Shown here in pieces: positions 2,150 to 34,628 of a stretch of DNA of 35,001 nucleotides. Below the pieces are notes generated by a model that worked only from the letters and a program-made list of their open reading frames with translations, searched no databases and was not told the DNA's origin. The position numbers and the translations under genes are program-made. How positions within the stretch are numbered: position 1 is the first letter of the stretch; each line of letters begins with the position of its first letter. The DNA comes from a virus. Location: IMG/VR virus record IMGVR_UViG_3300021957_006387, positions 1 through 35,001 of that record; one strand, written 5' to 3'.

Positions 2150-2168
2150 TAATAAAGGAATAAGATAA

Positions 2169-4163: not shown

Positions 4164-4181
4164 TAAAAAGGAATAAAATAA

Positions 4182-6140: not shown

Positions 6141-6158
6141 AGATAAAGGATAAAGTAA

Positions 6159-8363: not shown

Positions 8364-8378
8364 ACAAAGGAAAAGTAA

Positions 8379-10115: not shown

Positions 10116-10131
10116 ATAAAAGGAAAAGTAA

Positions 10132-11793
10132 ATGAGTAACGCAAGAAGATTGAGTAAAATAGTTGTTGGTACGGAAGTAAAAATAGCTTCTGTTGACTCT
10201 GATCTATCAAATAAAATAACATTGTTTAAAGGAAGATTAGATTCTGATGATGGTGCTATACAATTATTAGGAGCATCACTCGAATCTGTTTCATCATCTT
10301 CAGGTATGAGCGATTCAGATTTAAAAGTAGTTGGTGATTTGAGAAACCAATTAGATTCTGAAATTCTTTTTACTAGAAATCTATCAGTTAGTTATACAAA
10401 TTATCTTTATAACGCTACAGCAGGTCAAACATCTTTTAGTGGAACGGATGCTAACTCAGCAACTCTAGCTTATACTGCTGGAGCTATACAAGTATTTTTA
10501 AATGGTGTACTGATGACCTCAGAAGATTTTACAGCTACAGATGGTACTTCAATTGTATTAACAGAACCAGCTCAAGTGAGTGCTCAATTAATTGTACTTG
10601 TTCCTAAGATAGAATCAAATATTATAATAACTGGTGTAGATTGGACTAGCCATTCTTTAGCACAAAGTCTTCAACACTCAGGAACACAAGTAGCTAGTCA
10701 GCTGTTTGGTGAAGTAATTTCTATCGATGGAGATTACGCAGTTATAACTGCAAGAAATTTATCATATCAAATTAGTAGTACTGATGTAAAAGGAAAAGCA
10801 TATGTGTTTTATAAATCAAGTGGTACCTGGGCACAACAAGCTGAGCTTTCACATACTGACACGCCATCTAGTAACTACGGAGTAGATGCAGCAATATCTG
10901 GAAATACAGTTGCAGTTGCTGATAGTGCAGGTGATGGGGCAGTAAGAATATTTACAAGATCTGGTACTACATGGTCTTTACAACAAAAAATAACAGGAAA
11001 CTCGACAACAATGAATGGTTTTGCTGACGGAGCTATATCATTATCAGGAGATAAATTAGCTGTAGGATGTTATGCATATGCTACTCCTGGATCAAGTACA
11101 GGAAGAATAGCTATTTTTAATAGATCTGGATCAACGTGGAGTTTTGAATCTTTTCTTGATGCTTCAGATGCAGCTGCTAGTGATCTAATGGGGTATTATA
11201 ATGTTTCTATTAGTGGTAACTATGTTATTGCCGGAACATCAGCCAGAGAAGCTGCATATATATGGTTTTACAATGGATCATCGTGGTCACAACAAGCAAA
11301 ATTAACAGCTTCAGATGGAAGTTCAGGTCATAGTTTTGGGTTTAGTGTTGCAATAGACGGTGACATAGTAGTTGTAGGCGCTGCATGGAAAACCAGTGAA
11401 ACGGGAGCTGCTTATGTATTCACTAGATCAGGTACAAGTTGGACTCAAACAACAATTTTAGGAGCAGGTGGTACTATACCAAGTGATTTATCAACTGGCG
11501 ATCAATTTGGATATACTTTAGATATAGATGAAAACTCATTAATTGTTGGTGCACCTAATGTAGCTTCACCTAGAGGTAATGGATCAGCTTATATTTTTAT
11601 AACTAGCAATAGTGGCGCAGCATGGACACAGGCAAATAAATTTACAACTACAAGTGGAGACAACACTGATAATTATGGTTATGGGAGAAGAACAGTAGCT
11701 ATAGATGAAACGTCTGAATCAATTATTGTAGGAGCATATGAAGATGATACTGGAGCAACTAAGGCTGGTAAAGTATATTTTTATGAAGGTTAA
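10132..11793 (+). CDS. Fibre/adhesin paralogue 6: short stalk + 7-blade propeller
   Basis: 553 aa, the shortest of the propeller-bearing members. Tag MSNARRLSKIVVGTEV, short stalk with one RLDSDD (same 86-residue register), connector about 88-166 (NATAGQTSFSGTDAN, FLNGVLMTSEDF). Propeller from W171 (DWTSHSLAQSLQHSGTQ) with seven blades. Closing strands include AYVFYKSSGTW, VRIFTRSGTTW, IAIFNRSGSTW, AYIWFYNGSSW, AYVFTRSGTSW and YIFITSNSGAAW; the last blade ends KVYFYEG. Its first propeller segment (QHSG) resembles that of paralogue 5, its neighbour, suggesting a recent common ancestor by tandem duplication. The ribosome binding site is AAAAGGAAAAG ahead of the ATG. Confidence 0.74.
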   Translation: MSNARRLSKIVVGTEVKIASVDSDLSNKITLFKGRLDSDDGAIQLLGASLESVSSSSGMSDSDLKVVGDLRNQLDSEILFTRNLSVSYTNYLYNATAGQTSFSGTDANSATLAYTAGAIQVFLNGVLMTSEDFTATDGTSIVLTEPAQVSAQLIVLVPKIESNIIITGVDWTSHSLAQSLQHSGTQVASQLFGEVISIDGDYAVITARNLSYQISSTDVKGKAYVFYKSSGTWAQQAELSHTDTPSSNYGVDAAISGNTVAVADSAGDGAVRIFTRSGTTWSLQQKITGNSTTMNGFADGAISLSGDKLAVGCYAYATPGSSTGRIAIFNRSGSTWSFESFLDASDAAASDLMGYYNVSISGNYVIAGTSAREAAYIWFYNGSSWSQQAKLTASDGSSGHSFGFSVAIDGDIVVVGAAWKTSETGAAYVFTRSGTSWTQTTILGAGGTIPSDLSTGDQFGYTLDIDENSLIVGAPNVASPRGNGSAYIFITSNSGAAWTQANKFTTTSGDNTDNYGYGRRTVAIDETSESIIVGAYEDDTGATKAGKVYFYEG

Positions 11794-11812
11794 GTAATTA
11801 AATTATATATAT

Positions 11813-11833
11813 AGTTAACAAAAAAAGGATAAG
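11813..11833 (+). repeat. 21-nt leader repeat before paralogue 7
   Basis: The 21 nt from AGTTAAC through seven A residues to GGATAAG recur exactly at 13659-13679 before paralogue 8. It includes the AAAGGA ribosome binding site and extends well upstream of it, so it is either a copied leader or a shared regulatory element. Confidence 0.8.
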
Positions 11834-11836
11834 TTA

Positions 11837-13648
11837 ATGAGTAACGCAAGAAAAATATCTCAACTTGTAGTTGGAACAGAAGTTAAAATTTCCAACGTAG
11901 ATTCTGATATTAATAATAGTTTAACTAATATTATATCTAGATTAGATTCTGACGATAGTAAATTACAATCACTTAATGTAGCAACAGCCGCTGCTTCAAG
12001 TGTTGCTGGTATAAGTGATTCAGATTTAAAAGTAGTTGCTGATTTAAGAAATGATTTAGATTCAGAAATATTATATGTAAGAAATATAAGACTTAGTTAC
12101 ACAAATTATCTTTATAACTCTACTGCAGGACAAACATCATTTACAGGAACTGATGCTAACTCAGCAACTCTAGCTTACACTGCTGGTTCAATTACAGTAT
12201 TTTTAAATGGTATTAAACTTGAAGCTGATGATTACACAGCTACAGATGGTACAACAATAGTTTTAACACAGCCAGCAGGTTTGAGTAGTCAGCTATCAAT
12301 TCTTTGTCCTAAATTAGAATCTCATCCAGCTGTAATACCTGCTACTACATATACATGGGCACTTGGTCATTCAGTAGATCAAGTAAAAATAGTTTCTAGT
12401 GATATAGGAACAGGAGATAGATTTGGATGGGATCTTGCTATAGATCAAGATGGTGATACAATGGTAGTTACTGCACCTTATTGGGATGGAGCTACATACC
12501 AACAAGATGGAGCTATTTACGTATATACAAGAGCATCTACAGATGCTACAGATAGTGACTGGACTGAGCAACAAAAAATGACAGCTGAAAGTTTTACTGG
12601 AGTTAATCATAATACTTACTTTGCATGGTCTGTTGATATTACAAATGACGGAGATACAATAGTTGCTGGTGCTCATAAAACACCAAACGATAAAGGTGGT
12701 CATCTAGTAGTATACTCAAGAACAGGTTCTACCTGGGCAATAGATAGCGAGTTATTTGCTAATGATATACCAGAGTCTTCTGCTCAAAGTGTTGATAGGC
12801 TAGGTGAAGCTGTTGCAATTTCTGGAGATGGAAATACAATTGTGGCTGGAGCTCCTGGTAAAGGATCCGGAGCAGGTAATGGATTTGCTTATATTTTCGT
12901 AAAAGATGAATATGGAGATTGGTCTCAAGAAGCAAAAATTTCTCCTCAATTTAAATCAGGAGGAAGTGCTTCTAGTCATGGAACTGATGGTAATCAAGAT
13001 TTTGGTAAAGCAGTAACTATTACAAATGATGGTAATACTATTGCAATTGGTGCACCTGGAAGATCAATTGGTAGTGGAAATATTACAGGACGTGTTGAAG
13101 TATTCACAAGATCTGGATCTTCATGGTCACATCAAGTAACTATTGAAAATGATACACCTACAGCTAGAGATGGCTTTGGTTGGACTGTATCTTTAGCAGG
13201 AAATGATGGAGATACATTAGCTATAGGTCAACATTATGAATACTCTGGATTTGACGGACATTCGTGGATATATATTAGATCTGGTTCTACGTGGTCACAG
13301 CAAGCAAAGTTAAGAGGTTATTCTATTACTGCTACTGAAGATTATGGTGTTGATGTTAGTCTTTCAGATACTGGAGATAGATTAATTGCTGGAGCACAAC
13401 AAGATAATGTTGCATCAGGACAAGAACCTGGTACAACTTTTATTTGGAGAAGAAATGACAGTGATGCTATTACATGGAATTTAGAAAGAAGAATAGAACC
13501 AACGTCTGGTTCTCATGATGATAGATTTGGATACGCAGTATCACTTGCAGGAGATAGTAGTACAATTGCAATAGGAGCTTACGGCGAAGGCGGCGGAGGC
13601 AGCAATTTAAATGGTGCTGTATATGTGTTTGTAGGCGAACAAGAATAA
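11837..13648 (+). CDS. Fibre/adhesin paralogue 7: short stalk + 7-blade propeller
   Basis: 603 aa. Tag MSNARKISQLVVGTEV, short stalk (landmark L86, one RLDSDD), connector about 88-167 (NSTAGQTSFTGTDAN, FLNGIKLEADDY). Propeller from W174 with seven blades. Openings include SSDIGTGDRFG, NDTPTARDGFG and TSGSHDDRFG; closing strands include YVYTRASTDATDSDW, VEVFTRSGSSW and FIWRRNDSDAITW; the end is VYVFVGEQE. Loops are longer than in paralogue 6. It has a 43-nt spacer upstream, longer than the 14-19 nt typical of earlier array genes, holding TATATATA about 24 nt before the ATG and a leader block that recurs before paralogue 8. It could therefore have its own weak late promoter. Confidence 0.74.
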   Translation: MSNARKISQLVVGTEVKISNVDSDINNSLTNIISRLDSDDSKLQSLNVATAAASSVAGISDSDLKVVADLRNDLDSEILYVRNIRLSYTNYLYNSTAGQTSFTGTDANSATLAYTAGSITVFLNGIKLEADDYTATDGTTIVLTQPAGLSSQLSILCPKLESHPAVIPATTYTWALGHSVDQVKIVSSDIGTGDRFGWDLAIDQDGDTMVVTAPYWDGATYQQDGAIYVYTRASTDATDSDWTEQQKMTAESFTGVNHNTYFAWSVDITNDGDTIVAGAHKTPNDKGGHLVVYSRTGSTWAIDSELFANDIPESSAQSVDRLGEAVAISGDGNTIVAGAPGKGSGAGNGFAYIFVKDEYGDWSQEAKISPQFKSGGSASSHGTDGNQDFGKAVTITNDGNTIAIGAPGRSIGSGNITGRVEVFTRSGSSWSHQVTIENDTPTARDGFGWTVSLAGNDGDTLAIGQHYEYSGFDGHSWIYIRSGSTWSQQAKLRGYSITATEDYGVDVSLSDTGDRLIAGAQQDNVASGQEPGTTFIWRRNDSDAITWNLERRIEPTSGSHDDRFGYAVSLAGDSSTIAIGAYGEGGGGSNLNGAVYVFVGEQE

Positions 13649-13658
13649 AAAATATTCA

Positions 13659-13679
13659 AGTTAACAAAAAAAGGATAAG
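13659..13679 (+). repeat. 21-nt leader repeat before paralogue 8
   Basis: Exact copy of 11813-11833, ending 4 nt before the ATG at 13684. Array genes further left have only the AAAGGA part. Confidence 0.8.
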
Positions 13680-13683
13680 GTAA

Positions 13684-15780
13684 ATGAGTAACGGAAGAAA
13701 ATTAGCTGACTTAATGGTTGGTACAAATGTAGTAGCAACTAATGTTGATTCAGATTTATCTACAAAAATTAATTCAATTAAAACAAGATTAGATTCTGAT
13801 GATACAAAGTTACAGTCTTTGGATACAGCAATACAAGCAGGGATTCAAAACTTAGCTGACTCTGATTTAATTATTAATCAATTACAAGCTAAGATAAATT
13901 CTGTCATATCTAATGTTGATTCAGATTCATCATTTGTACAATCCATCAATACACAAATAGATTTAATAAAATCAAGATTAGATTCAGACGATGCTAAACT
14001 TCAACAAGTAAGAACAAGTATTGCTTCAGAAATATCAGCTACCAACACAGACGTAAGTTCTATTATAGGTAGGTTAGATTCAGATAGCTCAAAGCTACAA
14101 CAATTAGACACCTCAATTGTATCAGTAAAAACTAGATTAGATTCAGACGATGCAGCTATTCAAGCAGCAACAACATTAGCTAGTGCAACAGCTGGTTCTG
14201 TAGGTGTAACAGATTCTGATTTAAAAGTAGTTGCTGATTTAAGAAATCAATTAGATTCTGAGATAATATTTGTAAAGAATTTTGCAATTAGTTATACAAA
14301 TTACATTTATAATTCTACTGCAGGACAAACATCATTTACAGGTAATGATGCTAACTCAGCAACTCTAGCTTACACAGCTGGAGCTATTCAAGTATTTTTA
14401 AATGGTATAAGATTAGAAGCTGACGACTATACAGCTACAGATGGAACAACTGTTGTATTAACTGAAGGTGCACAACTAGGTCATCAAGTTACTATTGTTT
14501 GTCCTAAGTTAGAATCAAATTATATACCTGCTCTTAACTGGGGTGCTTTGTCTCTTGTAACAGTACTTATGGGTGGTGATGGTGATGGTCCTGCAGGAAA
14601 TTTCGGAACCAATATTGATATGGCAGGTGATTATATTGCAGTTGGTGCTCCAGGTATGACTGGAGCTCATTATAGTGGAAGTGTTCAAGCTGGAGGAGTT
14701 TTTATATACAAAAGATCAGATTCAGAAGGTGGATATGGATGGCCAGAAACAACATTAATATACGATGGAAACGGCCTGTATCCTAATGCAGACGAACAAG
14801 ATCAGTTTGGATCCTCACTAGCTTTTACAGATGAAAATGGTGATAATTTATTAGTAACAAATACTAATACTAGCAACTCTGCTCGCCAATATAAAGTATA
14901 TCACTACACAAGATCTGGGACTACATGGTCTTTAGCTCAAACAATTAATGCTCCTACATATGGTGGTGCAAGTTCGGGCAATCAAATGGAAGCAAGTAAT
15001 AGCGATCATGGGTTTGGTAGAGATGGACGTTTATCAGCGAGTGGTGATTATTTTGTGGTTGGTGCTCCAACTGATGATGCTGGAGGTGATAATAAAGGTT
15101 CTGCATGGATGTATTATTATTCAAGTGGAAGTTATGCTATTCAACAAGAGTTAATTGGTTCTGACAATGGAGATGCTTCTAGATATGGAGAACAAGTATG
15201 TATCAATGGTGATGTAGCAGTAATAGGAGCTCCCGATCAAGATAAATATGATGGCTATAAAGGTGCTGCTTATGTATTCACAAGATCCGGATCATCGTGG
15301 TCTCAGCTACAAAAAATTCAGCCTCCGACTTCTGGTGTTCATTCTGATACTTCGGCTAGAAAAGGAATGGGTAAATCTGTATCAATTGATGGAGATTACA
15401 TAGCAATTGGAGCTCATCAGTCAACAGTGTCAACTTATACTTATGCTGGAAAAGTTTATATATACAAGTGGAATGGAAGTTCGTATGTCATAGATGGTTC
15501 AGTGACACCTTCTAATCCGATGCAATATGGTTATTTTGGACAATCGTGTGAAATAAGAGGTGATGTATTAATTGTAGGATCATACGGAAGAGTTTCTGGT
15601 TATGTTTTTACCAGAACTGGATCAACATGGACAGAACGAAAAATATTATTTCCTGGCAATACTCCTTTTAACTCAACTGGATTGGGTAGCACACAACAAT
15701 CTACTATTAATAAAGACACAACTAAAAATGAAGTAATATTAGGAGCAAATGGAAAGGGAGTGTGGGTTTACTCACTCTGA
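13684..15780 (+). CDS. Fibre/adhesin paralogue 8: long stalk + 7-blade propeller
   Basis: 698 aa. Tag MSNGRKLADLMVGTNV. The stalk is in the longest class (landmark residue 202) with RLDSD units spaced 63, 32 and 21, the same unit order as paralogue 2, although its first 64 stalk nucleotides (13741-13804) are identical to paralogue 5. Connector about 204-281 (NSTAGQTSFTGNDAN, FLNGIRLEADDY). Propeller from W286 (NWGALSLVTVLMGGDGDGP) with seven blades. Three closing strands deviate from the RSGTTW form (KRSDSEGGYGW, YYSSGSY, KWNGSSY), and the protein ends GVWVYSL. Upstream spacer of 35 nt carries the same 21-nt leader as paralogue 7. Confidence 0.74.
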   Translation: MSNGRKLADLMVGTNVVATNVDSDLSTKINSIKTRLDSDDTKLQSLDTAIQAGIQNLADSDLIINQLQAKINSVISNVDSDSSFVQSINTQIDLIKSRLDSDDAKLQQVRTSIASEISATNTDVSSIIGRLDSDSSKLQQLDTSIVSVKTRLDSDDAAIQAATTLASATAGSVGVTDSDLKVVADLRNQLDSEIIFVKNFAISYTNYIYNSTAGQTSFTGNDANSATLAYTAGAIQVFLNGIRLEADDYTATDGTTVVLTEGAQLGHQVTIVCPKLESNYIPALNWGALSLVTVLMGGDGDGPAGNFGTNIDMAGDYIAVGAPGMTGAHYSGSVQAGGVFIYKRSDSEGGYGWPETTLIYDGNGLYPNADEQDQFGSSLAFTDENGDNLLVTNTNTSNSARQYKVYHYTRSGTTWSLAQTINAPTYGGASSGNQMEASNSDHGFGRDGRLSASGDYFVVGAPTDDAGGDNKGSAWMYYYSSGSYAIQQELIGSDNGDASRYGEQVCINGDVAVIGAPDQDKYDGYKGAAYVFTRSGSSWSQLQKIQPPTSGVHSDTSARKGMGKSVSIDGDYIAIGAHQSTVSTYTYAGKVYIYKWNGSSYVIDGSVTPSNPMQYGYFGQSCEIRGDVLIVGSYGRVSGYVFTRTGSTWTERKILFPGNTPFNSTGLGSTQQSTINKDTTKNEVILGANGKGVWVYSL
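13741..13804 (+). repeat. 64-nt exact direct repeat, copy B (paralogue 8 stalk)
   Basis: Second copy of the block at 8436-8499, 5305 nt downstream in the same orientation and frame. Third-position identity over 21 codons indicates a recent exchange or duplication rather than protein-level conservation. Confidence 0.9.
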
Positions 15781-15806
15781 TAAATTAAATATTAAAATTA
15801 AAAAAA

Positions 15807-15814
15807 TATAAATA
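15807..15814 (+). promoter_or_regulatory. T4-type late promoter box before the propeller-less gene
   Basis: Perfect TATAAATA, 27 nt before ATG 15842, in the 61-nt spacer after paralogue 8. T4 late promoters consist of this box, recognised by the gp55 sigma-like factor with gp33/gp45. Confidence 0.7.
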
Positions 15815-15841
15815 TTAAGTCTAAACAAAGGAAATAAAAAA

Positions 15842-16576
15842 ATGAGTAGAGGTAGAGAACTAGCCAAATTAGTAGTAGGACAATCAGTTGTCGTAACTGG
15901 AGTTGATTCAGATTTAGCTAACACAATAGCAGCAATCAAAGGAAGATTAGATTCTGATGACACTAAACTTCAAGCTCTTGATACTGCATTAGCAGCTGAG
16001 ATTTCATCTACCAATACTGACATATCAGCTATTAGAGCAAGATTAGATTCTGAGCACGAAAACACCAGAAGTATTATTGCAGCTGGTTTAGTTAATTTAG
16101 CTGACTCTGATTTAATAGTAAGTCAGTTAACAGCAAAAGTAAGTGCAGCTATTACAAATTTGGATTCAGATTCAATAGCTTTACAAAATGTTCAAACACA
16201 AATAGATACTTTAAAAGGAAGATTAGATTCTGATGACACTAAACTTCAAGCTCTTGATACAGCAGTTACAGCAGCTCAAGCTAGAGCAGATGCAGCACAT
16301 GTAAGATTAGATTCAGACGAAGCAATCATTCAAGGTCTTAGAAATACATTTACATTTTTTGAATATACCGCAACAGCTGGACAAACCTCATTTAGTGGAA
16401 GTGATAATAATTCAGCATCTTTAATTTATACTGTCAATCAAATAATGGTTTTCTTGAACGGTATAAGATTAGAATCTTCTGACTACACAGCATCAAATGG
16501 TACTAGTGTCGTTTTAACAGAAGCTGCTGGTGTAAGCAATGATGTAACAATTGTTAGTTTAGTTAAGTCATCCTAA
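15842..16576 (+). CDS. Propeller-less array member: stalk + connector only
   Basis: 244 aa. It opens with a variant tag, MSRGRELAKLVVGQSV, followed by a stalk with four RLDSD/E units (32, 60 and 28 residues apart) and LADSDLIVSQLTAKV. It then has the family connector (TATAGQTSFSGSDNN, FLNGIRLESSDY, NGTSVVLTEAAG) and ends at once with VTIVSLVKSS, exactly where the others go on to the propeller. A 47-nt coding block is duplicated inside it (15938-15984 and 16214-16260). The stop is clean and no propeller remnant follows, so it reads as a designed short protein rather than a decayed copy. A perfect late box precedes it. It could be a base, spacer or hub for the long fibres, or a stand-alone fibre; this is inference. 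Confidence 0.75.
   Translation: MSRGRELAKLVVGQSVVVTGVDSDLANTIAAIKGRLDSDDTKLQALDTALAAEISSTNTDISAIRARLDSEHENTRSIIAAGLVNLADSDLIVSQLTAKVSAAITNLDSDSIALQNVQTQIDTLKGRLDSDDTKLQALDTAVTAAQARADAAHVRLDSDEAIIQGLRNTFTFFEYTATAGQTSFSGSDNNSASLIYTVNQIMVFLNGIRLESSDYTASNGTSVVLTEAAGVSNDVTIVSLVKSS
15938..15984 (+). repeat. 47-nt exact repeat within the propeller-less gene, copy A
   Basis: Identical to 16214-16260, 276 nt (92 codons) downstream in the same frame. It encodes a GRLDSDDTKLQALDT stalk unit and records an internal duplication of a stalk segment. Confidence 0.85.
16214..16260 (+). repeat. 47-nt exact repeat within the propeller-less gene, copy B
   Basis: Second copy of the stalk-unit block at 15938-15984. 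The two copies flank the LADSDLIVSQLTAK part of the stalk. Confidence 0.85.
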
Positions 16577-24614: not shown

Positions 24615-26231
24615 ATGGCAGAAAAAACTATTAATCTTTTTGGATTTGATTTAGTCACTCCAGAAAATGAAAAAAAACAAGTAAGTCCTGTACCTGTTGA
24701 AATGGATGACGGTACAGAACTTCCTGTTGGAGGACGCGTTGGTTACACATATGAAATTGATAAAAAATATCGAAACGAACATCAATTAATAACTCAATAT
24801 AGAAACGTGAGCTTTTATCCAGAAGCTGATGCTGCAATAGACGATATTGTTAATGAAGCTTTTGTTGTTGAACATGAAAGAGCTCCAGTATCAATACGTT
24901 TAGATACTCTGAATATAGACGATAGAATTAAAAAGATAATAAGAAGCGAGTTTAAAAACGTATTACATTATCTTAAATTTCAAAGAAAATCTTATGATCT
25001 ATTTAGACAATGGTACATAGATGGTAGATTGTTTTTTCAAGTAATAATAGATAAAAAAAATCCTAAAGATGGTATTCATGAACTAAGACCTATCGACGCT
25101 TTAAAAATAAAAAGAATGGTTAAACCTGAATACGAAAAAGATAAAAATACAGGTGTTCCAGTTCTTACAAAAGTAAACGAATGGTACGAATATGCTCCAG
25201 ATAAAAATATGAATAGCTCTGCTAAACTATCAAAAGATAGTGTAGTTTTTTGCCCTTCTGGTATACTTGACAGAAACAGAGGAATGATTGTAGGTTATTT
25301 AGATAAAGCTATTAAACCATTTAATAATTTAAGATCAATGGAAGATGCTTTAATTGTTTATAGAATAGCAAGAGCTCCTGAAAGAAGAATATTTTATGTA
25401 GATGTTGGTCAGCTTCCTAAGATTAAAGCTGAACAATATATTAAAGATATGATGAATAGATATAGAAATAAAATTGATTATGATCCTAGTACTGGTTCAA
25501 TAAGAGATAGTAGAAAATTTATGTCTATGTTAGAAGATTTTTGGTTACCAAGAAGAGATGGATCAAAAGGAACTGAAATTACTACACTTCCAGGAGGACA
25601 AAATCTAGGTGATCTTGATGATGTTGAATATTTTAAAGGCAAGTTGTATCAATCTTTAAATGTACCTATGAGTAGAATCAATCAAGATAATAATTTTCAA
25701 CTTGGAAGAGCTTCAGATATTAGTAGAGATGAATTGAAATTTACAAAATTTATTCACAGAATAAGAAAACAATTTGCTGAATTGTTTAATGAAGTGTTGA
25801 GAGTACAATTAGTTTTAAAAGGCGTATGTACAACTGGTGAATTTGAAGAGATGAGACAGTATATAACATATGATTATATTTCTGATACACATTTTGAAAA
25901 TTTAAAAAGAATTGAAATACTAGGAGATCAACTTAATGTGTTAAGAGATGCTTCTGAATATGTTGGTAAATATTTTTCTATAGAATATATAAGAAAAGAA
26001 ATACTTGGTCAAACAGAAGAAGACATTGCAAGAATTGATAAACAAATTATGAGTGAAATGGATAAAGAACAAATACAAGATATAGATGTTCCTTCTGACA
26101 TTGCAAATAACGACTTTGTTAATATGTATGATGATTATAAAAAGTCACCAGAGATGACCTTAACAGAAAACAGTAGTGATTTAGATATAAATACTACAGT
26201 AATAGAAGAGGATTCTGATGCCATTACCTAA
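24615..26231 (+). CDS. gp20: Portal vertex protein (gp20-like)
   Basis: 538 aa, close to T4 gp20 (524 aa). Recognisable portal segments are QYRNVSFYPEADAAIDDIVN near the N-terminus, the crown/wing region (LKFQRKSYDLFRQWYIDGRL, FQVIIDKKNPKDGI, ELRPIDALKIKRM), RIARAPERRIFYVDVGQLPK, FWLPRRDGSKGTEI and ITTLPGGQNLGDLDDVEYF, then RINQDNNFQLGRASDISRDE. The dodecameric portal nucleates the prohead, is the DNA channel and binds terminase and neck. The C-terminus is acidic and ends EEDSDAIT. GAGGAA precedes the ATG. The last 14 nt overlap the next gene. A perfect TATAAATA lies inside its 3' end. Confidence 0.95.
   Translation: MAEKTINLFGFDLVTPENEKKQVSPVPVEMDDGTELPVGGRVGYTYEIDKKYRNEHQLITQYRNVSFYPEADAAIDDIVNEAFVVEHERAPVSIRLDTLNIDDRIKKIIRSEFKNVLHYLKFQRKSYDLFRQWYIDGRLFFQVIIDKKNPKDGIHELRPIDALKIKRMVKPEYEKDKNTGVPVLTKVNEWYEYAPDKNMNSSAKLSKDSVVFCPSGILDRNRGMIVGYLDKAIKPFNNLRSMEDALIVYRIARAPERRIFYVDVGQLPKIKAEQYIKDMMNRYRNKIDYDPSTGSIRDSRKFMSMLEDFWLPRRDGSKGTEITTLPGGQNLGDLDDVEYFKGKLYQSLNVPMSRINQDNNFQLGRASDISRDELKFTKFIHRIRKQFAELFNEVLRVQLVLKGVCTTGEFEEMRQYITYDYISDTHFENLKRIEILGDQLNVLRDASEYVGKYFSIEYIRKEILGQTEEDIARIDKQIMSEMDKEQIQDIDVPSDIANNDFVNMYDDYKKSPEMTLTENSSDLDINTTVIEEDSDAIT
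26186..26193 (+). promoter_or_regulatory. Possible intragenic late promoter before the gp13-like gene
   Basis: Perfect TATAAATA inside the portal 3' end, 24 nt before ATG 26218, matching the spacing of intergenic boxes. Chance is possible in AT-rich coding DNA. Confidence 0.4.
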
Positions 26232-27219
26232 TAGTAAACAAGAGTTAGCTGATTATATATTAAGAAAATTAGGAGCTCCTGTTATTAATGTTGAGATAGC
26301 AGATATACAATTGGAAGATTGTATAGATGATGCTGTACAACTGTATCAAGAATATCATTTTGATGGCGCAGAAAGAACATATAGATTAATTAAAATTGAT
26401 GAAAAATTTCTAAACAGAAATACAAGAAAACATCAAACAATGACAGCTGAAGATTATGTTAGTACTGAAACATATTCTAAAGGTGCTAGAGTGATGCATA
26501 AAATAGATAACGTAACCGGACAAAGAATATACATTAAGACTGATTCTGATGGTGCGTTTGATTCTGAAGCAACTTTTTCAACTAAATTTCAATTAGAAGA
26601 AAAAATTTTAGAAGATCAGAATATAACATTAACAGATGGTGGAAAGGTAGGAATCAAAGTTCCTAATGACATTATATCAGTTACTAAAATTGCTAAGGTT
26701 GATTCGTTTAGTCAAGCAGGTATGTGGAATTATGAGTACCAATATTTTTTAAATAACTTTGATTTTTTCTACGGTGGAATGGCAGGTGGTGGTTTAACTT
26801 CATATTACATTCAGAAATCTTTCATTGAACATATTGAATTTTTATTAAACACTTCACCAGCTATAAGATTTAACAAACATAAAAATAGATTATATTTAGA
26901 TGTTGATATGAATAGACTTAAACATGTTTCTAATGGTGGTAAAAAAACACATTATTTGTTAGCTGAATGTTATGTAATTACAGATCCAGAAATTTATGGA
27001 CAAGTATATCAAGACAGTTGGTTGAAATCTTATTCAGTATCATTAGCTAAGATGCAATGGGGTGCTAATTTAAAAAAATATATGAACACAGAATTACCTG
27101 GCGGGGTTCAATTAGATGGTCAAACATTATACAACGAAGGTAAAGAAGAAGAACTAGCTTTAAGAGAAGAGCTTAGAAACAATAACCAATTAGAGCTAGA
27201 CTCTATTTTATGGGGATAA
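26218..27219 (+). CDS. gp13: Neck protein, gp13-like
   Basis: 333 aa (T4 gp13 is 309 aa). The start KQELADYILRKLGAPVINVE...QLEDCIDDAVQLYQEYHFDG parallels T4 gp13 as remembered (LKDVILRRLGAPIINVELT...ALELYGEYHFDG). The C-terminus ELPGGVQLDGQTLYNEGKEE followed by ALREEL parallels MLPGGVTIDGQRLIEEAR...ALREEL. In T4 gp13 forms the neck with gp14, closing the filled head and accepting the tail. Residues about 100-140 contain a DSD-bearing insertion (IKTDSDGAFDSEATFS). Location is unusual: it sits directly after the portal and overlaps it by 14 nt, whereas in T4 gene 13 lies with 14-16, upstream of the tail sheath gene. AAGAGG at 26206-26211 is the ribosome binding site. Confidence 0.8.
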   Translation: MPLPNSKQELADYILRKLGAPVINVEIADIQLEDCIDDAVQLYQEYHFDGAERTYRLIKIDEKFLNRNTRKHQTMTAEDYVSTETYSKGARVMHKIDNVTGQRIYIKTDSDGAFDSEATFSTKFQLEEKILEDQNITLTDGGKVGIKVPNDIISVTKIAKVDSFSQAGMWNYEYQYFLNNFDFFYGGMAGGGLTSYYIQKSFIEHIEFLLNTSPAIRFNKHKNRLYLDVDMNRLKHVSNGGKKTHYLLAECYVITDPEIYGQVYQDSWLKSYSVSLAKMQWGANLKKYMNTELPGGVQLDGQTLYNEGKEEELALREELRNNNQLELDSILWG

Positions 27220-27227
27220 TAAATAGT

Positions 27228-27398
27228 ATGAGTAAAACTGACTTTACGAAAGACATTGACAATAAAGACAATTTTGTTAATAATATAAAGAACGAATTAG
27301 ATGTTACAGCTTATAATGCGTTAAACGCAATAAAAAAAGAGTTAGCAACTGATTTTATTAAAGGTGATAATAATGATACTGCAAAATCTGAAGAATAA
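27228..27398 (+). CDS. Small hypothetical protein (gene 67-like position)
   Basis: 56 aa from ATG 27228 (MSKTDFTKDIDNKDNFVNNI). An in-frame ATG at 27210, overlapping the end of the gp13-like gene, would give 62 aa. Neither start has a clear ribosome binding site, so translation is probably coupled to the upstream gene. The product is charged, rich in Asn, Asp and Lys, with a probable amphipathic helix (NELDVTAYNALNAIKKELAT) and no membrane segment. In T4 the small prohead core genes 67 and 68 lie between portal and protease, so position suggests a prohead core peptide; the sequence itself does not prove it. Its 3' end overlaps the next gene by 26 nt in another frame. Confidence 0.55.
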   Translation: MSKTDFTKDIDNKDNFVNNIKNELDVTAYNALNAIKKELATDFIKGDNNDTAKSEE

Positions 27399-28092
27399 AA
27401 TTTTTGAAAATCAAAAAAAGATTGTCATTGAGCAATTGAATAACGACGTTGCAGTTGATAATTCTATATTTACAGATGAAGAATTGAAAAACATTAAAGA
27501 AGAAACAGATATCAATAATTATTTTGAATATATTGAAGAAGACATTGATGATGTAGAGGAATATGAATTTGATTTAAACTCAAATGATGAAGAAGATTGT
27601 GGTTGTGAATCTCATGAAGATGATTGTGAATGTCCAGAATATTACTTAGACTTTGTACCTATGGAAGATGGTGATGAAATGGATCTTCAATATGGTGTAG
27701 AAGATAGAACTGGATACCACGATGGAATTCAAACATATATTGCTATGAAAGATGCTTTGTTTGCTGAAGAGTATGAGATATATGAAGATTTATATTTTGA
27801 TGAGGATGGAAATGAGAATATAAAAGAAGGTGCAGCTCAAGTAATATTTAGAAGAGCTAAAGGTAAAATTATTAAAAAGAAAAAGTGTGGACCTGGAATG
27901 AGATTAGCAGGTCGTAGATGTTTACCTCAAACTGGAACACAAAAAGCATCGATGAAAAAATTAGGAATAAAACTTAAAAGAGCTAAGAAAGCTATGGGTT
28001 CAGCTGCAAAAAGAAAGGCTGCAAGAATAGCTAAGATTACAAAAAAGAGAATCAAGGGTCGTAATAGAAGCTTAGCTTCTTTATCAAACTAG
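27373..28092 (+). CDS. Acidic/basic two-part protein, possible prohead core component
   Basis: 239 aa from ATG 27373 (MILQNLKNKIFENQ). The frame also opens at GTG 27364, but AAAGGTG sits there as ribosome binding site, favouring the ATG. Charge is sharply split: residues about 30-160 are very acidic (YIEEDIDDVEEYEFDLN, DEDGNENIKEG), and from about 160 to the end very basic (GKIIKKKKCGPGMRLAGRRC, KLKRAKKAMGSAAKRKAARI, KKRIKGRNRS). Cysteines are clustered as C76, C78, C85, C87 (CGCESHEDDCEC) and C172/C183, which could bind metal. The basic tail looks DNA- or RNA-binding. Its position between portal and protease matches T4 gene 68, a prohead core protein, but homology is not shown. The next gene follows with AGGAG. 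Confidence 0.65.
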   Translation: MILQNLKNKIFENQKKIVIEQLNNDVAVDNSIFTDEELKNIKEETDINNYFEYIEEDIDDVEEYEFDLNSNDEEDCGCESHEDDCECPEYYLDFVPMEDGDEMDLQYGVEDRTGYHDGIQTYIAMKDALFAEEYEIYEDLYFDEDGNENIKEGAAQVIFRRAKGKIIKKKKCGPGMRLAGRRCLPQTGTQKASMKKLGIKLKRAKKAMGSAAKRKAARIAKITKKRIKGRNRSLASLSN

Positions 28093-28101
28093 GAGATATA
28101 A

Positions 28102-28440
28102 ATGGCTAATACTATAATAGCAAAAAGAATTACAGCAAGAGATCAAAACTCTGCAAGAGTAACATTGCATATTGATGCAGCATCTGCTTTTGATTCAGAC
28201 GCATTATTGTTTACATTAGAAACTGGTGAAACAAAAAGATTTCAACCTAATAGAATAGAGACAGTTATTAATATGGGACCTAATGATGTTACATTAGACG
28301 GTAAAGTATTTGAATCAGGCAATTGGTTGCTATCTCAATTTGGAGGTTTACCTTTTATTGGAGCAGCAGGAGGAGGTTCTCTTACTGTTGTAGGTACTAG
28401 CCCTAATGCAATAATTGAATTGAGAGGCTTCTTAGTATAA
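28102..28440 (+). CDS. 112-aa hypothetical, probable small virion protein
   Basis: I do not recognise a family. 112 aa, no signal peptide or membrane helix. It is beta-rich with glycine-rich turns: SARVTLHIDAASAFDSDALL, FTLETGETKRFQPNRIETVI, GPNDVTLDGKVFESGNWLLS, FIGAAGGGSLTVVGTSPNA, ELRGFLV. The pattern looks like a compact beta-sandwich, as in small head decoration or joining proteins; that is a guess from composition and context. It has a good AGGAG site six bases before ATG, overlapping the stop of the preceding gene, and lies 18 nt before the protease gene in the head module, so a capsid-related role is the best assumption. Confidence 0.6.
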   Translation: MANTIIAKRITARDQNSARVTLHIDAASAFDSDALLFTLETGETKRFQPNRIETVINMGPNDVTLDGKVFESGNWLLSQFGGLPFIGAAGGGSLTVVGTSPNAIIELRGFLV

Positions 28441-28458: not shown

Positions 28459-29115
28459 ATGAAACTCATAGCAGAACCAACATTATTTGAAGACATAAAA
28501 GTTATTACTGAAGGTAAAGGCAAAGATAAAAAAAGAATGTATATATCCGGTCCTTTTCTTCAAGCTGAGAAACAAAACAGAAATGGTAGAGTTTATCCTC
28601 AATCTATTATGGATCAAGCAGTTAAAAAATATAAAGAAGAATATATTGATAAAAAAAGATCTTTAGGAGAGTTAAATCATCCAGCTGAACCTACAGTTAA
28701 TCCTGAAAGAGCAGCTATACTAACTGAATCATTAGAGAAAGACAACATCTATTATAAAGGAAAAGCAAAAATACTATCAACACCATGTGGTAAAATTGTT
28801 GAAAGTTTAGTAGATGATGGTGTAACAATTGGTGTAAGTTCAAGAGGTTTAGGATCTCTTAAACCTACAAGAGAAGGTTATAATGAAGTACAAAGTGATT
28901 TTGTTTTAACTACTGCGGCAGATATCGTTTTTGATCCCTCTGCACAATCTTCATTTGTTGAAGGTGTTTATGAACAAGCAGAATGGATATTCGAGTCTGG
29001 ATTGTTTGTTCAAAGAGACTTAGCTGAAGCAAGAAAACAATTGCTTAGAGCTGATAGAAATAGAATAAATGAAGTTAAACTTAAATTATTTAATAAATTT
29101 TTAAGAGATCTTTAA
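28459..29115 (+). CDS. gp21: Prohead core protease (gp21-like)
   Basis: 218 aa, about the T4 gp21 size. The family hallmarks are present: QNRNGRVYPQSIMDQAV, SLGELNHPAEPTVNPERAAI with the probable catalytic H74, and DGVTIGVSSRGLGSL with the probable nucleophile Ser in SSRG (S127 or S128). Phage T4-type prohead proteases of the gp21 group are serine proteases that cut scaffold and capsid precursors after (I/L)xE during head maturation, then degrade themselves. The substrate genes (scaffold and capsid) follow immediately. AGGAT upstream is a modest ribosome binding site; no late box precedes it, so it is read through from upstream. Confidence 0.93.
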   Translation: MKLIAEPTLFEDIKVITEGKGKDKKRMYISGPFLQAEKQNRNGRVYPQSIMDQAVKKYKEEYIDKKRSLGELNHPAEPTVNPERAAILTESLEKDNIYYKGKAKILSTPCGKIVESLVDDGVTIGVSSRGLGSLKPTREGYNEVQSDFVLTTAADIVFDPSAQSSFVEGVYEQAEWIFESGLFVQRDLAEARKQLLRADRNRINEVKLKLFNKFLRDL

Positions 29116-29152: not shown

Positions 29153-31513
29153 ATGTCTAAAGATTTAATAAATGTAATTGATGATCTTCTTAATGAGAAG
29201 GCAAAAACTGGTGCAATGACAACAAAAGATACTGTTATCAATCCGCAGGAAAAAAAGCCTATGAAAGAAGAAGAAATAAAAGAATTTAATCAGAATGCAG
29301 ATAATGCAAAGAATTTAACTAGTGATGGAAAGACAGCAGATGCTGCTACTATTAAACCATCTAGTGGCAAAGATTCGAGCAATGTTGAAGCTGATAAAGG
29401 ACCTCATGATCAAGCTGGAGAAAACGCTAGCGATCAAGGTGATATGAACAAAGGCAAAATTGCTAGTGATGCATCTGCTGAAATTGCGGCTGACAAAGGT
29501 CCACATGATCAGTCTACAGATAATGCAGGTGATACAAATAGTATTGATGGTATAAGTGCTAAACCTTCTCAAGCTTCTGCAGAAGTTGAAGCTAATAAAG
29601 GTCCACATGATCAAGCTAACGATCCAGGAATGAGCGAAGAAATAGAAACTGAAGAAGAAACAGTTGATGAAAAAGCTAAAATGGATGCAGTAGGTAAGGA
29701 AGATGGTGATGTTGACAACGATGGTGACAAAGATAAATCAGACGATTACTTAATGAAAAGAAGAGCTGCAATTAAAAAAGCTATGTCTTCAGAAGAAGTT
29801 TCTTGGGAAGATGCAATGTATGTTCTACATTCAGAAGAATTATCAATTAAAGAATCATCAGGAGCTTTTGATTGGGACAAGATTAAAGACTTAGATGAAA
29901 GTCAATGGTACCTATTAGTTGGCGAATTAGACGAATCTGAAGTTGACATTTTTGCTGAGGAATTAAAAACTATGGCTTCAAGTATACCAGAAGAACAAGA
30001 GCTTCCAACAAAGCAAGAAGCTGAAGAAGAATATGGTAGAGAATTGACTGATGAAGAGTATGATCATATTTGTGATTCACAATATCACTTATGTGCTGTT
30101 GTAGTTGAACATCCAGAGTGGGGTGAAGGTAAACCAATTATTGGTAGACACGCTGCACCAGATGATGAAGGTAACATAGAATGGTATGATGTAGAATTTG
30201 AACATGGAATAGAAGAAGAAGTTCCTGTAGAAGGTATGAACATTGTTCACGAAATGAGTCATGGCGCTTCTAAAGGTAAAAAGAAAATGAAAGAAACTAT
30301 GAAAAAGAACATTGACACAAGCATGGGTGAAGATAAAGTTGAAGAAGGTGAGAAAGTAAAACCTGGTTCTGCTTTTGACAGAATGCCTGCTAAGTCTCCA
30401 GGTGTGAAAATGGGTGATAAGATTCCAGCTAAATTTAAGCCAGGTGTTCCTGCAGTTTCTTCTGTTAAGAAAGAAGAAGCTGAAGAAGTTGAAGAGGCTT
30501 TACCAGCAGGAGATCCAATTCAAAAACTTGGTGATGCAAAAGGTCAAGATACAACTATCAAAACTGGTGCAAATGACAAAGAGCTTCCTGCAGATGATAA
30601 GAAAACAGCTAAAGGTGAAGCTGATAATAAAGGAGGCGATCCTGCAGCTGGTCCTCATAACCAAGCTAATGATCCATTAGAAACACCAACTACAGCTAAT
30701 CCAAAAGGTGTTGCAAAATTAAAAACAGCATCTGCTACAGCTGAACCTAACAAAGGTCCACACGATCAAGCTAAGGATCCTATAGTCAATAAAATGGCAG
30801 CTGAAGAAACACATTCTGAGAACGTGGATGATTTAGATGAAGATTTTAAACGTAAGGCACAAGTAGTTTTTGAAACAGCTGTTAATGAAAAAGTTGAGCA
30901 ATATAAAGTAGAAATTCAAGAAGAAACTGAAAAGTTAATTCAAGAAGAAAAAGATTCTATTAATGAAAAAGTTCAAGAATATATTGACTATGCGGTTAAA
31001 GAATGGTTAAAAGAAAATGAATTAGAAATTAAATATTCTTTAAGAACTGAAGTAGCTGAAAGCTTTATTACAGGAATGAGAAAATTATTCGCAGAGAATT
31101 ATATAGACATACCTGAAGATGAAATTTCTGTTGTTGATGAAATAACAGAACAAATAGATTCATTTAAGGAGCAATCTGAAGAGTATGCTTCACAAAATGA
31201 AAAACTACAAAAAGAAGTCTTAGAATTGAAAAAGTCATCTATTGTAGAAACAGTATCAGAAGGTCTAACAGAAACACAGAAAATTAAATTAGAAAAATTA
31301 TCTGCATCTGTTGAAGCTGAAGATACAGAGGAATTCCAAACCAAGTTAGAAGATCTTAAACAAGTTTATTTTAACGAAGGTGAAGAAAGCAAGAAGCTTC
31401 TTGGCTCATTGAGTGAAGAAGTTATTGGTACTGACGAAGTAATTGCTGAAGAATCTAATGACTATTCCGTCAATGCATACGCTCAGTTCCTTACAAAAAC
31501 TATAAAGAAATAA
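29153..31513 (+). CDS. gp22: Very long prohead scaffold core protein (gp22-like)
   Basis: 786 aa from ATG 29153; an in-frame GTG at 29144 overlaps the AAGGAG site and is rejected. T4 gp22 is 269 aa. Only the C-terminal ~210 residues resemble it: FKRKAQVVFETAVNEKVEQY, VQEYIDYAVKEWLKENELEI, LRTEVAESFITGMRKLFAEN, helical coiled coil. The N-terminal extension holds GPHDQ/GPHNQ repeats at residues 83, 116, 150, 500 and 535; an EF-hand-like loop DVDNDGDKDKSD (186-197) followed by DYLMKRRAAIKKA; and a compact domain near 285-365 (VVVEHPEWGEGKPIIGRHAA, EWYDVEFEHGIEEEVPVEGM) resembling small beta-barrel modules of marine phages. The rest is acidic and low complexity. It shapes the prohead and is cleaved by gp21. 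Perfect late box at 29120. Confidence 0.85.
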   Translation: MSKDLINVIDDLLNEKAKTGAMTTKDTVINPQEKKPMKEEEIKEFNQNADNAKNLTSDGKTADAATIKPSSGKDSSNVEADKGPHDQAGENASDQGDMNKGKIASDASAEIAADKGPHDQSTDNAGDTNSIDGISAKPSQASAEVEANKGPHDQANDPGMSEEIETEEETVDEKAKMDAVGKEDGDVDNDGDKDKSDDYLMKRRAAIKKAMSSEEVSWEDAMYVLHSEELSIKESSGAFDWDKIKDLDESQWYLLVGELDESEVDIFAEELKTMASSIPEEQELPTKQEAEEEYGRELTDEEYDHICDSQYHLCAVVVEHPEWGEGKPIIGRHAAPDDEGNIEWYDVEFEHGIEEEVPVEGMNIVHEMSHGASKGKKKMKETMKKNIDTSMGEDKVEEGEKVKPGSAFDRMPAKSPGVKMGDKIPAKFKPGVPAVSSVKKEEAEEVEEALPAGDPIQKLGDAKGQDTTIKTGANDKELPADDKKTAKGEADNKGGDPAAGPHNQANDPLETPTTANPKGVAKLKTASATAEPNKGPHDQAKDPIVNKMAAEETHSENVDDLDEDFKRKAQVVFETAVNEKVEQYKVEIQEETEKLIQEEKDSINEKVQEYIDYAVKEWLKENELEIKYSLRTEVAESFITGMRKLFAENYIDIPEDEISVVDEITEQIDSFKEQSEEYASQNEKLQKEVLELKKSSIVETVSEGLTETQKIKLEKLSASVEAEDTEEFQTKLEDLKQVYFNEGEESKKLLGSLSEEVIGTDEVIAEESNDYSVNAYAQFLTKTIKK

Positions 31514-31577: not shown

Positions 31578-33062
31578 ATGTCTTTTGATGTTCTCACAGA
31601 AAAATGGGCTCCAGTAATTAATCACGACGATTTACCTGAAATTAAGGAAAGAGACAAGAAAGCCGTTGTAGCTCAAGTTCTCGAGAATACTGAGAAAGCT
31701 CTTCATGAAGAAACTCAGATTCAGGAATCAAGTGTATCTGGTGCAGCCTTCGGAGGTGCCTTTTCAGGCGCCGGCGATAATGCAAGTATAAACGCAACTG
31801 GTCGTGCAGGTTACGATCCGATTATCATATCACTAGTAAGAAGAGCAATGCCTCAAATGATGGCTTTTGATCTTTGTGGTGTGCAAGCAATGTCAGCTCC
31901 AACAGGTTTAATTTTTGCCTTACGTGCTAGATATAATAACAGAAATGAAGTAGACGGACTTGGTGAAGAGGGCTTAGAGGCTTTCTACAACGAAGTATTC
32001 CCGAACTTTTCTGGTACTGCCTTCAATACAGGTGCTCCTGGCACTCATAAAGAAGGTGCGAATGAGGATACTTCTGGTAACCCATTTAATCCTTCAAGAG
32101 CTGCTAACTCTGGTTCAACATCAGCTGAATCAGATGCATATACTGATAACTCAGTAACACCTGTCAATAACCCTTTTGGTGCTAACTCTGGTGCAAACCC
32201 TGCTCTTGCAGGTGGTTCAGCAAAAAATAGCGCTGAAGGTACTTCTTCTTATGGTATGACTACCAGAGAAGGTGAAGGTGATAACTTCCGTGAAATGTCA
32301 TTCACAATTGAGAGAACAGCTGTCGAAGCTAAGACACGTGCTCTAAAAAGTGAATACACAATGGAGTTAGTACAAGATCTTAGAGCTGTTCACGGTCTAG
32401 ATGCTGAAGCAGAATTATCAAATATTCTGTCTACAGAAATCTTAGCTGAGATCAATAGAGAAGTTGTATACACTATCATTTCTCAAGCTAAAAGAGGTGC
32501 TACAGGCCTAACAACAGCAGGAAGATTTGATCTTATTGCTGATGGTCAAGGTAGATGGTCAGTAGAAAGACAAAAAGGTCTTATGCTTCAAATAGAAAAA
32601 GAAAGCAATAACATTGCATTCGAAACTAGAAGAGGTAAAGGTAACTTTATGTTATGTTCTGCTAACGTAGCTTCAGGTCTTACAATGGCTGGTCTTCTTG
32701 ACTATTCATCAGGGATCCAAGATAACTTAGATGTTGACGTAACATCAGGTGTCTTCGCAGGTACTTTGAATAATAGAACAAAGGTTTATATTGACCCGTA
32801 TGCAACATCAGGTGACTACATCGTTGTTGGATATAAAGGTACAAACAATATGGATGCAGGTATGTTCTATTGTCCTTATGTTCCATTACAAATGGTCAGA
32901 GCTGTTGCTCAAGAGACTTTCCAGCCAAAAATCGGTTTTAAAACTCGATATGGAATGGTTTCTAATCCGTTTGCTGGTGGTGCTGCAGCGATCCAATCAA
33001 AAGGATTAGTAGCTCCTCACTCAAACGTATACTACAGAAAATTTGCTGTAGATAACGTATAA
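31578..33062 (+). CDS. gp23: Major capsid protein precursor (gp23-like)
   Basis: 494 aa. T4-type capsid segments: GRAGYDPIIISLVRRAMPQM, MAFDLCGVQAMSAPTGLIFA, MSFTIERTAVEAKTRALKSE, YTMELVQDLRAVHGLDAEAE, SNILSTEILAEINREVVYTI, and near the C-terminus VPLQMVRAVAQETFQPKIGF with KTRYGMVSNPF. HK97-fold proteins of this type form the hexamers of the head. The first ~50 residues look like the removable propeptide; IQE at residues 48-50 fits the (I/L)xE cleavage rule, putting maturation after E50 (inference). Strong AAGGAG before the ATG, a near-perfect late box TATGAATA 39 nt upstream and a strong terminator after the gene fit high expression. Its codon choice includes more C-ending codons than the array genes. 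Confidence 0.97.
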   Translation: MSFDVLTEKWAPVINHDDLPEIKERDKKAVVAQVLENTEKALHEETQIQESSVSGAAFGGAFSGAGDNASINATGRAGYDPIIISLVRRAMPQMMAFDLCGVQAMSAPTGLIFALRARYNNRNEVDGLGEEGLEAFYNEVFPNFSGTAFNTGAPGTHKEGANEDTSGNPFNPSRAANSGSTSAESDAYTDNSVTPVNNPFGANSGANPALAGGSAKNSAEGTSSYGMTTREGEGDNFREMSFTIERTAVEAKTRALKSEYTMELVQDLRAVHGLDAEAELSNILSTEILAEINREVVYTIISQAKRGATGLTTAGRFDLIADGQGRWSVERQKGLMLQIEKESNNIAFETRRGKGNFMLCSANVASGLTMAGLLDYSSGIQDNLDVDVTSGVFAGTLNNRTKVYIDPYATSGDYIVVGYKGTNNMDAGMFYCPYVPLQMVRAVAQETFQPKIGFKTRYGMVSNPFAGGAAAIQSKGLVAPHSNVYYRKFAVDNV

Positions 33063-33884: not shown

Positions 33885-34628
33885 ATGAAAACATTTACAG
33901 ATTTTATAGAAGAAATTTTTGAAAGAGCTGAAGAAGAAGACGAAAGAGATAAACCAGATAGAAACGTTGTAATGCAAGCTAGAAAAGCTGTCAACATGGG
34001 TAATAAAGATATTACATTTCATGATGGTAAAACGCATAACGTATCAAGAGCTCATGCACAAAAATTCTTAAACAAACATACTTCTGCAGACAGAGATAAC
34101 AAATTAAGTATACAAAATCATGCTCAGCAATCACATAAAAACTTCATGTCACATGTAGGTGAAGACATAGAAGTTGAAGAAGGTACAGGATCAAAAGTTT
34201 GTGATCAATGTGAAAATGGTAAAACAGAAAACGGTTCAACATGTAAACCTTGTAATGGAACAGGATATGATATGTCACCAGCAAAACCTGCTACTGAAGC
34301 ATTAGTTGGAGATCAACATAAATTAGATCACAATAAAGATAATAAAATTTCTAAAAGCGATATGAAAATGGTTAGAAAAGTAGGCGCTGTGAAAGAAGAT
34401 GAATCATCTGTTGCAAAAGAAGGTTCGTTAACACCTGTTAGTAAAAATGATTATGCTGAACAAATGGCCGCATACATGAAAGGTTTAATATTAAAAAATA
34501 ACGTTTCAGTTGAAGAAAAAGCAGGTCTGTGGGCTAATATTCATGCAAAAAGAGCTCGTGGTGAAAAAATGAGAGAACCAGGTTCAAAAGGTGCACCTAC
34601 AAAAGCAGATTTCAAAAGATCACAGTAA
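33885..34628 (+). CDS. Zinc-ribbon/EF-hand modular protein
   Basis: 247 aa, soluble, charged. Modules in order: an N-terminal helix MKTFTDFIEEIFERAEEEDE; a segment RNVVMQARKAVNMGNKDITF with DGKTHNVSRAHAQKFLNKH, recurrent in marine T4-like phages; a four-cysteine DnaJ-like zinc ribbon C106-x2-C109...C120-x2-C123 (CDQCENG, CKPCNGTGYD); an EF-hand-like loop DHNKDNKISKSD (148-159); and a C-terminal basic module KAGLWANIHAKRARGEKM with PGSKGAPTKADFK that I have seen in marine phage proteins. Function unknown; metal binding is inferred from cysteines and Asp spacing. A perfect late box overlaps the preceding stop, AAGAGG gives the ribosome binding site, and the TAA overlaps the next ATG (TAATG). 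Confidence 0.65.
   Translation: MKTFTDFIEEIFERAEEEDERDKPDRNVVMQARKAVNMGNKDITFHDGKTHNVSRAHAQKFLNKHTSADRDNKLSIQNHAQQSHKNFMSHVGEDIEVEEGTGSKVCDQCENGKTENGSTCKPCNGTGYDMSPAKPATEALVGDQHKLDHNKDNKISKSDMKMVRKVGAVKEDESSVAKEGSLTPVSKNDYAEQMAAYMKGLILKNNVSVEEKAGLWANIHAKRARGEKMREPGSKGAPTKADFKRSQ

Follow-up and report, generated by a model that had tools for sequence, protein, structure and literature searches.

The window analysed here, a stretch of 35,001 nucleotides of viral DNA from an IMG/VR record, carries on its plus strand a gene (29153..31513) for a bona fide T4-type gp22, the prohead core scaffold protein, the N-terminal half of which is a modular arm. Small cassettes are inserted into, lost from or replaced in a slot of this arm by recombination, and the same modules circulate among other proteins of related phages, some of them products of genes in the gp67/gp68 core interval. 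A gp22 of this kind, with its modular arm and its slot for exchangeable cassettes, belongs to a broader pattern among marine T4-like phages, of which we found no description in the literature searched.

The gp22 gene and its neighbourhood

The head gene cluster follows the T4-type order: gp20 portal (24615), head-tail adaptor, core protein (27364), a 112-aa protein, gp21, gp22, gp23 and tail tube (33274). The gp22 gene is flanked by those for the prohead protease gp21, its expected processor (28459..29115, plus strand; Peptidase_S77, PHROG and Pfam matches), and for the major capsid protein gp23 (31578..33062, plus strand; PHROG and Pfam matches, homology). Because gp23 is ~50% identical to cyanophage gp23, the virus is, on sequence grounds, a T4-like myovirus of the marine type. 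In T4, the core genes 67 and 68 map between gp20 and gp21; a putative small basic core/scaffold protein (27364..28092, plus strand; weak match to PHROG 3503) is encoded in this interval of the window. The head-tail adaptor gene (26218-27219) is located between the gp20 and core protein genes, unlike in the cyanophage head clusters examined, and is found in that position in contigs L001 and L014 as well. The 112-aa protein encoded just 5' of gp21 (28102-28440) matches no family and is conserved in L001, L014, L127 and L174. Elsewhere in the window (236-16576), successive related ORFs nearly all begin with MSN/MSR-(A/G)R, contain recurrent LDSDD motifs and are rich in repeats in their C-terminal halves; this run resembles a tandemly arranged family of adhesins or virion proteins.

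The gp22 ORF starts with ATG (an in-frame GTG is located 9 nt upstream) and encodes 786 aa. Its C-terminal scaffold core (residues 559-778; 30827..31486, plus strand) was recognized by the match to the Pfam family T4_CASP (PF25623; 154.8 bits, cut-off 27). An earlier, sequence-only reading of this DNA had found only the last ~210 residues gp22-like; however, the alignment to PHROG 237 (scaffold) begins at residue 379, and the gp22-type part is therefore nearer 400 residues. The same reading had called the protein three times normal size. This is true only in comparison with T4 gp22 (~270 aa): since marine T4-like gp22s without the extension are mostly 341-490 aa long (among the relatives examined), the window protein is about twice normal size. 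The oversized ORF itself is present as described, and L001, an independent contig from another sample, encodes a whole-length homolog with the same architecture throughout and 85-86% identity.

The extension is one continuous protein with gp22, translated and constrained, as follows from its conservation in L001 and from the per-codon dN/dS values between the two proteins (0.079 for residues 1-378, 0.046 for residues 301-375, i.e., the barrel described below, 0.184 for residues 379-557 and 0.126 for the core). Purifying selection spans the whole extension and is strongest in the barrel and near the third GPHDQ copy. The extension is thus neither a separate protein nor unconserved in relatives. 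The unusual length could have pointed to an artefact (a fused frame, a chimeric contig or two separate proteins), but this is hardly credible: the architecture of L001 is the same, that of L014, L127 and L174 is similar, and an assembly artefact is ruled out by L001 and by the purifying selection over the whole extension.

Modules of the arm

From the N-terminus, the extension consists of a predicted helix, three GPHDQ motifs, an EF-like segment (residues 175-212), a predicted hairpin (residues 238-275), a compact domain (residues ~297-378) and a long linker with two GPH(N/D)Q motifs, followed by the core. The five motifs were confirmed at residues 83, 116 and 150 (cluster 1; 29399..29614, plus strand; spacings 33 and 34) and at residues 500 and 535 (cluster 2; 30650..30769, plus strand; spacing 35). 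Their chance origin is ruled out, as shuffled copies of the protein contain on average 0.00015 such motifs against the five observed. Cluster 1 recurs in L001, L014, L127, L129 and L174. A loose regular expression for a short gp22-linker motif matched only part of the set.

The EF-hand/dockerin-like module (29675..29788, plus strand) contains the loop DVDNDGDKDKSD at residues 186-197 and has 191 relatives in viral contigs. Among the 45 distinct segments compared, the D/N/E ligands (positions 1, 3, 5 and 12) and the glycine at position 6 agree with the 12-residue EF-hand loop, in part because the search itself selected for them; position 8, which is hydrophobic in that loop, is Lys in 36 and Val in six segments. 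The "textbook" DxDxDGDxDxxD loop noticed earlier is indeed present, but no Pfam EF-hand model matches the segment, and this loop is the sole basis on which ion sensing could be proposed. The predicted helical hairpin (AFDWDKI...; 29864..29977, plus strand) was found only in gp22 of the window's clade, with two copies in L014. Searches with tblastn for the EF segment, the helical module and the L127 cassette (see below) in cultured phages gave no matches.

The compact domain (residues 297-375; 30041..30277, plus strand), already suspected from the sequence, was modelled with AlphaFold2 from a 42-sequence alignment of relatives. The prediction is a confident small barrel of 60-70 aa, in which five strands come after a short helix (core pLDDT ~90; 10-residue block means 86-95 over model residues 21-70). 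The best Foldseek superpositions were with C-terminal Tudor domains of PcrA/UvrD (5dma, TM 0.68, rmsd 2.3; 7egt, TM 0.66, rmsd 2.5; probability ~0.9, TM on the target). Sorted by E-value, the list is mixed, with the Pex13 SH3 domain on top and no value <0.2; for a shallower model UvrD was ranked first. CdnL is also among the matches. No Pfam family profile, including that of the PcrA/UvrD Tudor domain (PF21196), matched the barrel, and hhalign against PcrA Tudor sequences aligned only 16 columns (the V-x-H-x-x-(W/F)-G-x-G stretch; probability 44). Its membership in the PcrA Tudor or another Pfam family was rejected for want of a whole-domain match, and the modelled domain appears to be SH3/Tudor-like rather than a PcrA Tudor domain.

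The exchangeable slot and the distribution of the barrel

DNA alignment revealed an exchangeable slot at residues 275-449 (29975..30499, plus strand), which holds the barrel in the window, an unrelated cassette in L127 and almost nothing in L129. Flanking the slot, L127 and L129 share 98.9% and 98.2% DNA identity, and their gp22 genes differ by 240 nt. The window DNA aligns to both sides (76% and 84%) but not across, the barrel being located in the slot; the domains are swapped between close relatives. The L127 cassette comprises 80 aa, and a relative of it (74% identity) is found inside a different, 923-aa mosaic protein of that contig of the pair which lacks the cassette in gp22. This protein (L287, 2111-4879) also contains modules seen in other late proteins.

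A scan with eight barrel relatives as queries recovered 230 loci from viral contigs. Of the 80 retained, most have the barrel within gp22, where it commonly occupies residues 90-190 of a 447-505-aa protein. Among distinct gp22 cores of public contigs, the barrel is present in 43 and absent from 74. These 117 cores were used for a tree from which the extension was excluded; its ratio of proteins with and without the barrel is not a frequency, because the sample is enriched for carriers (a separate scan, in which gp22 cores were not chosen for having the barrel, found 72 distinct proteins that lack it and two that have it). Presence and absence of the barrel take 15 changes on this tree, 12 of them forced by well-supported branches, i.e., there were at least 12-15 gains or losses among the sampled gp22s. 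Individual pairs illustrate such events: L059 (with barrel) and L236 (without) share 86% and 89% DNA identity on the flanks of a ~69-codon insertion, and L095 and L211 (91-93%) differ by a similarly clean one (66-70 codons over both pairs). L014 (with) and L174 (without) are a further pair.

Outside gp22, genes located between gp20 and gp21 also code for proteins with these modules. L017 possesses there a 185-aa stand-alone protein with the barrel and the EF segment, next to a normal-sized gp22 (345-346 aa); L019 has a 188-aa barrel protein after gp20, and the EF segment is present in proteins of this interval in L134, L135, L136 and L146. The proteins of L134, L136 and L146 start with MKTLRQIISEVAQ and have their first ~300 residues in common, with lengths of 771, 342 and 599 aa, respectively. 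The barrel can also be found in other mosaic proteins, e.g., protein 163 of cyanophage P-HM1, which has the EF segment too. Most module-sharing proteins are encoded outside the core interval, mostly without a clear targeting sequence. No barrel was found in gp22 of cultured phages in the collection searched; in the annotated records, it occurs only in hypothetical proteins near cytidyltransferase genes. A cellular origin of the barrel was rejected: the two matches in genome contigs are a MAG fragment starting like phage gp22 and a 24-residue match.

A further protein of the window may link this mosaic family, by similarity, to the head interior. The product of 33885..34628 (plus strand) is probably a capsid-targeted internal head protein: its N-terminus, MKTFTDFIEE, resembles MKTYQEFIAE of T4 IpII/IpIII (AF158101), with the aromatic residue at position 4, F7, I8 and E10 all present. 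Positions 4, 7, 8 and 10 were found to be important in the T4 capsid-targeting peptide; Asp at position 10, present in the L002 homolog, blocks processing in T4 but not targeting (PMC9026906). The protein also carries another EF-like loop, with weak sub-threshold Pfam EF-hand matches only, and a GLWANIHAKRARGE module, and its C-terminus is a module shared with P-HM1 163 (PHROG 16028).

Possible roles of the arm

We consider the chances about even that the arm resides in the core and serves there as a modular carrier or tether with a slot for exchangeable cassettes. The identity and neighbours of gp22, the purifying selection, the exchanges at the slot, the repeated gain or loss of the barrel and the module-bearing proteins of the core interval speak for this reading. 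In T4, ~580 copies of gp22 build the prohead core together with gp21, gp67, gp68 and internal proteins; gp22 co-purifies with the internal proteins, is degraded by gp21, which cuts after L/I-x-E, and ends as small peptides (PMC9026906, PMC9958956). By analogy, the helical C-terminal core of the window protein would polymerize while the arm displays its cassette inside the prohead, and as many cassette copies as gp22 copies would therefore enter the core, one per subunit. The cassette would hold a partner or internal proteins, or would itself be packaged cargo, and the EF-like loop is a possible calcium binder that would make its own segment stiffer. L/I-x-E occurs 18 times in the window gp22 (11.9 expected), 11 of these at or after residue 558. 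The positions are 15, 44, 234-280, 355 and from 563 onwards; the free stretches (45-234 and 356-563) are marginally unusual (P ~0.05, shuffling), and L001 has the same layout, L127 and L129 approximately so. Cutting by gp21, dense in the core and lacking in these stretches, would leave larger arm fragments, which may be retained in the head or lost from it. The motif lies inside the barrel in 34 of 46 proteins and does not systematically flank it; sites positioned to release the barrel were rejected as inconsistent across proteins. Counting against the carrier or tether reading are this placement, the marginal significance of the free stretches and the many module-sharing proteins encoded outside the core interval. 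Moreover, many relatives have no cassette at all, so that assembly does not in general require one.

The cassettes may instead be handles for assembly or recruitment, with the barrel and the EF segment binding portal, shell or other core proteins during prohead formation and tuning core mass or head size before being fully degraded. We regard this as possible, though doubtful. The modules are indeed common to proteins of the gp20-gp21 interval, and the behaviour of T4 gp22 described above (co-purification with internal proteins, breakdown to small peptides) fits as well; however, the modules' frequent loss or replacement in near-identical phages would be odd for a contact with a conserved capsid. 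That the cassettes can be exchanged speaks against an obligatory contact with conserved shell proteins and in favour of the role of a carrier or partner tether. It had been suggested from the sequence alone that the extra domains serve core assembly; a role in the prohead core is supported indirectly by the gp20-gp21 interval proteins of L017 (barrel and EF segment) and of L134-L136 and L146 (EF segment).

Another suggestion made there, delivery of peptides into the head, would be compatible with exchangeable cassettes. In its strong form, gp22 would be a delivery vehicle: the slot would load hundreds of copies of a small domain, gp21 would free them for injection with the DNA, and hosts would drive cassette turnover as for the T4 internal proteins. 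We consider this unlikely. A PcrA/UvrD-type barrel, packed via gp22 and injected, could act on host transcription by contacting RNA polymerase; T4 Alt acts on host transcription as well, by another chemistry. The clearest superpositions (5dma and 7egt) and the listing of CdnL fit this idea, but no Foldseek E-value reaches 0.001, the lowest belongs to an unrelated SH3 domain, and the profile searches gave the short alignment described above. PcrA requires H681, W684, K712 and L714 for the contact (PMC5397179). The barrel keeps the His and Trp or another aromatic residue, whereas an invariant Glu takes the place of K712 and L714 is not retained (by-eye correspondence on G-x-K-x-L). We regard this reading as very improbable. 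Finally, recombination between repeated modules could insert the cassettes into a disordered arm as tolerated passengers of little function. Domain mosaicism is common in phage proteins according to the part of a survey drawn on here (PMC10684548), and barrel presence varies freely; yet the strong purifying selection in the extension, with its peak at the barrel and the third GPHDQ copy, and the intact barrels of dozens of gp22s render mere passengers quite improbable.

In the usual account, the T4 scaffold is a passive former, to be cut up and then expelled. Among the sampled phages, a scaffold with a cassette slot has gained or lost a folded domain no fewer than a dozen times; this suggests that the prohead core is a site for adding functions by fusion, and hints that the supposed throw-away scaffold may also carry or recruit other molecules within the growing head. 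Furthermore, mosaic proteins of unassigned function are flagged as possible residents of the core or head.

The mosaicism survey (PMC10684548) likewise deals with the shuffling of small domains among the proteins of related phages. In the part drawn on here, it names proteins of the tail, of lysis and of replication as its main cases and notes that its domain database covers head scaffolding poorly; no scaffold cassette slot is mentioned there. With the PcrA/UvrD Tudor domain (PF21196) and CarD/CdnL, the barrel shares, in its predicted structure, the small five-stranded SH3/Tudor-like fold and a V-x-H-x-x-W-G-x-G-type signature, but it has no whole-domain sequence homology to the PcrA/UvrD Tudor domain and does not keep the Lys and Leu of the RNA polymerase contact. 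With T4 IpI-IpIII and gp67/gp68, the arm has in common the working idea that the core houses small, variable proteins. Genes for some module-bearing proteins lie in the same interval, and the 33885 protein has the targeting layout. The T4 internal proteins are separate and targeted, whereas the variable part in the window is built into the scaffold, a gp22 without a targeting sequence. With T4-type gp22 (PF25623, PHROG 237), the window protein shares the C-terminal core, the gene order gp20-gp21-gp22-gp23 and the concentration of L/I-x-E motifs in the core, to which it adds a modular N-terminal half, a folded domain and an exchangeable slot.
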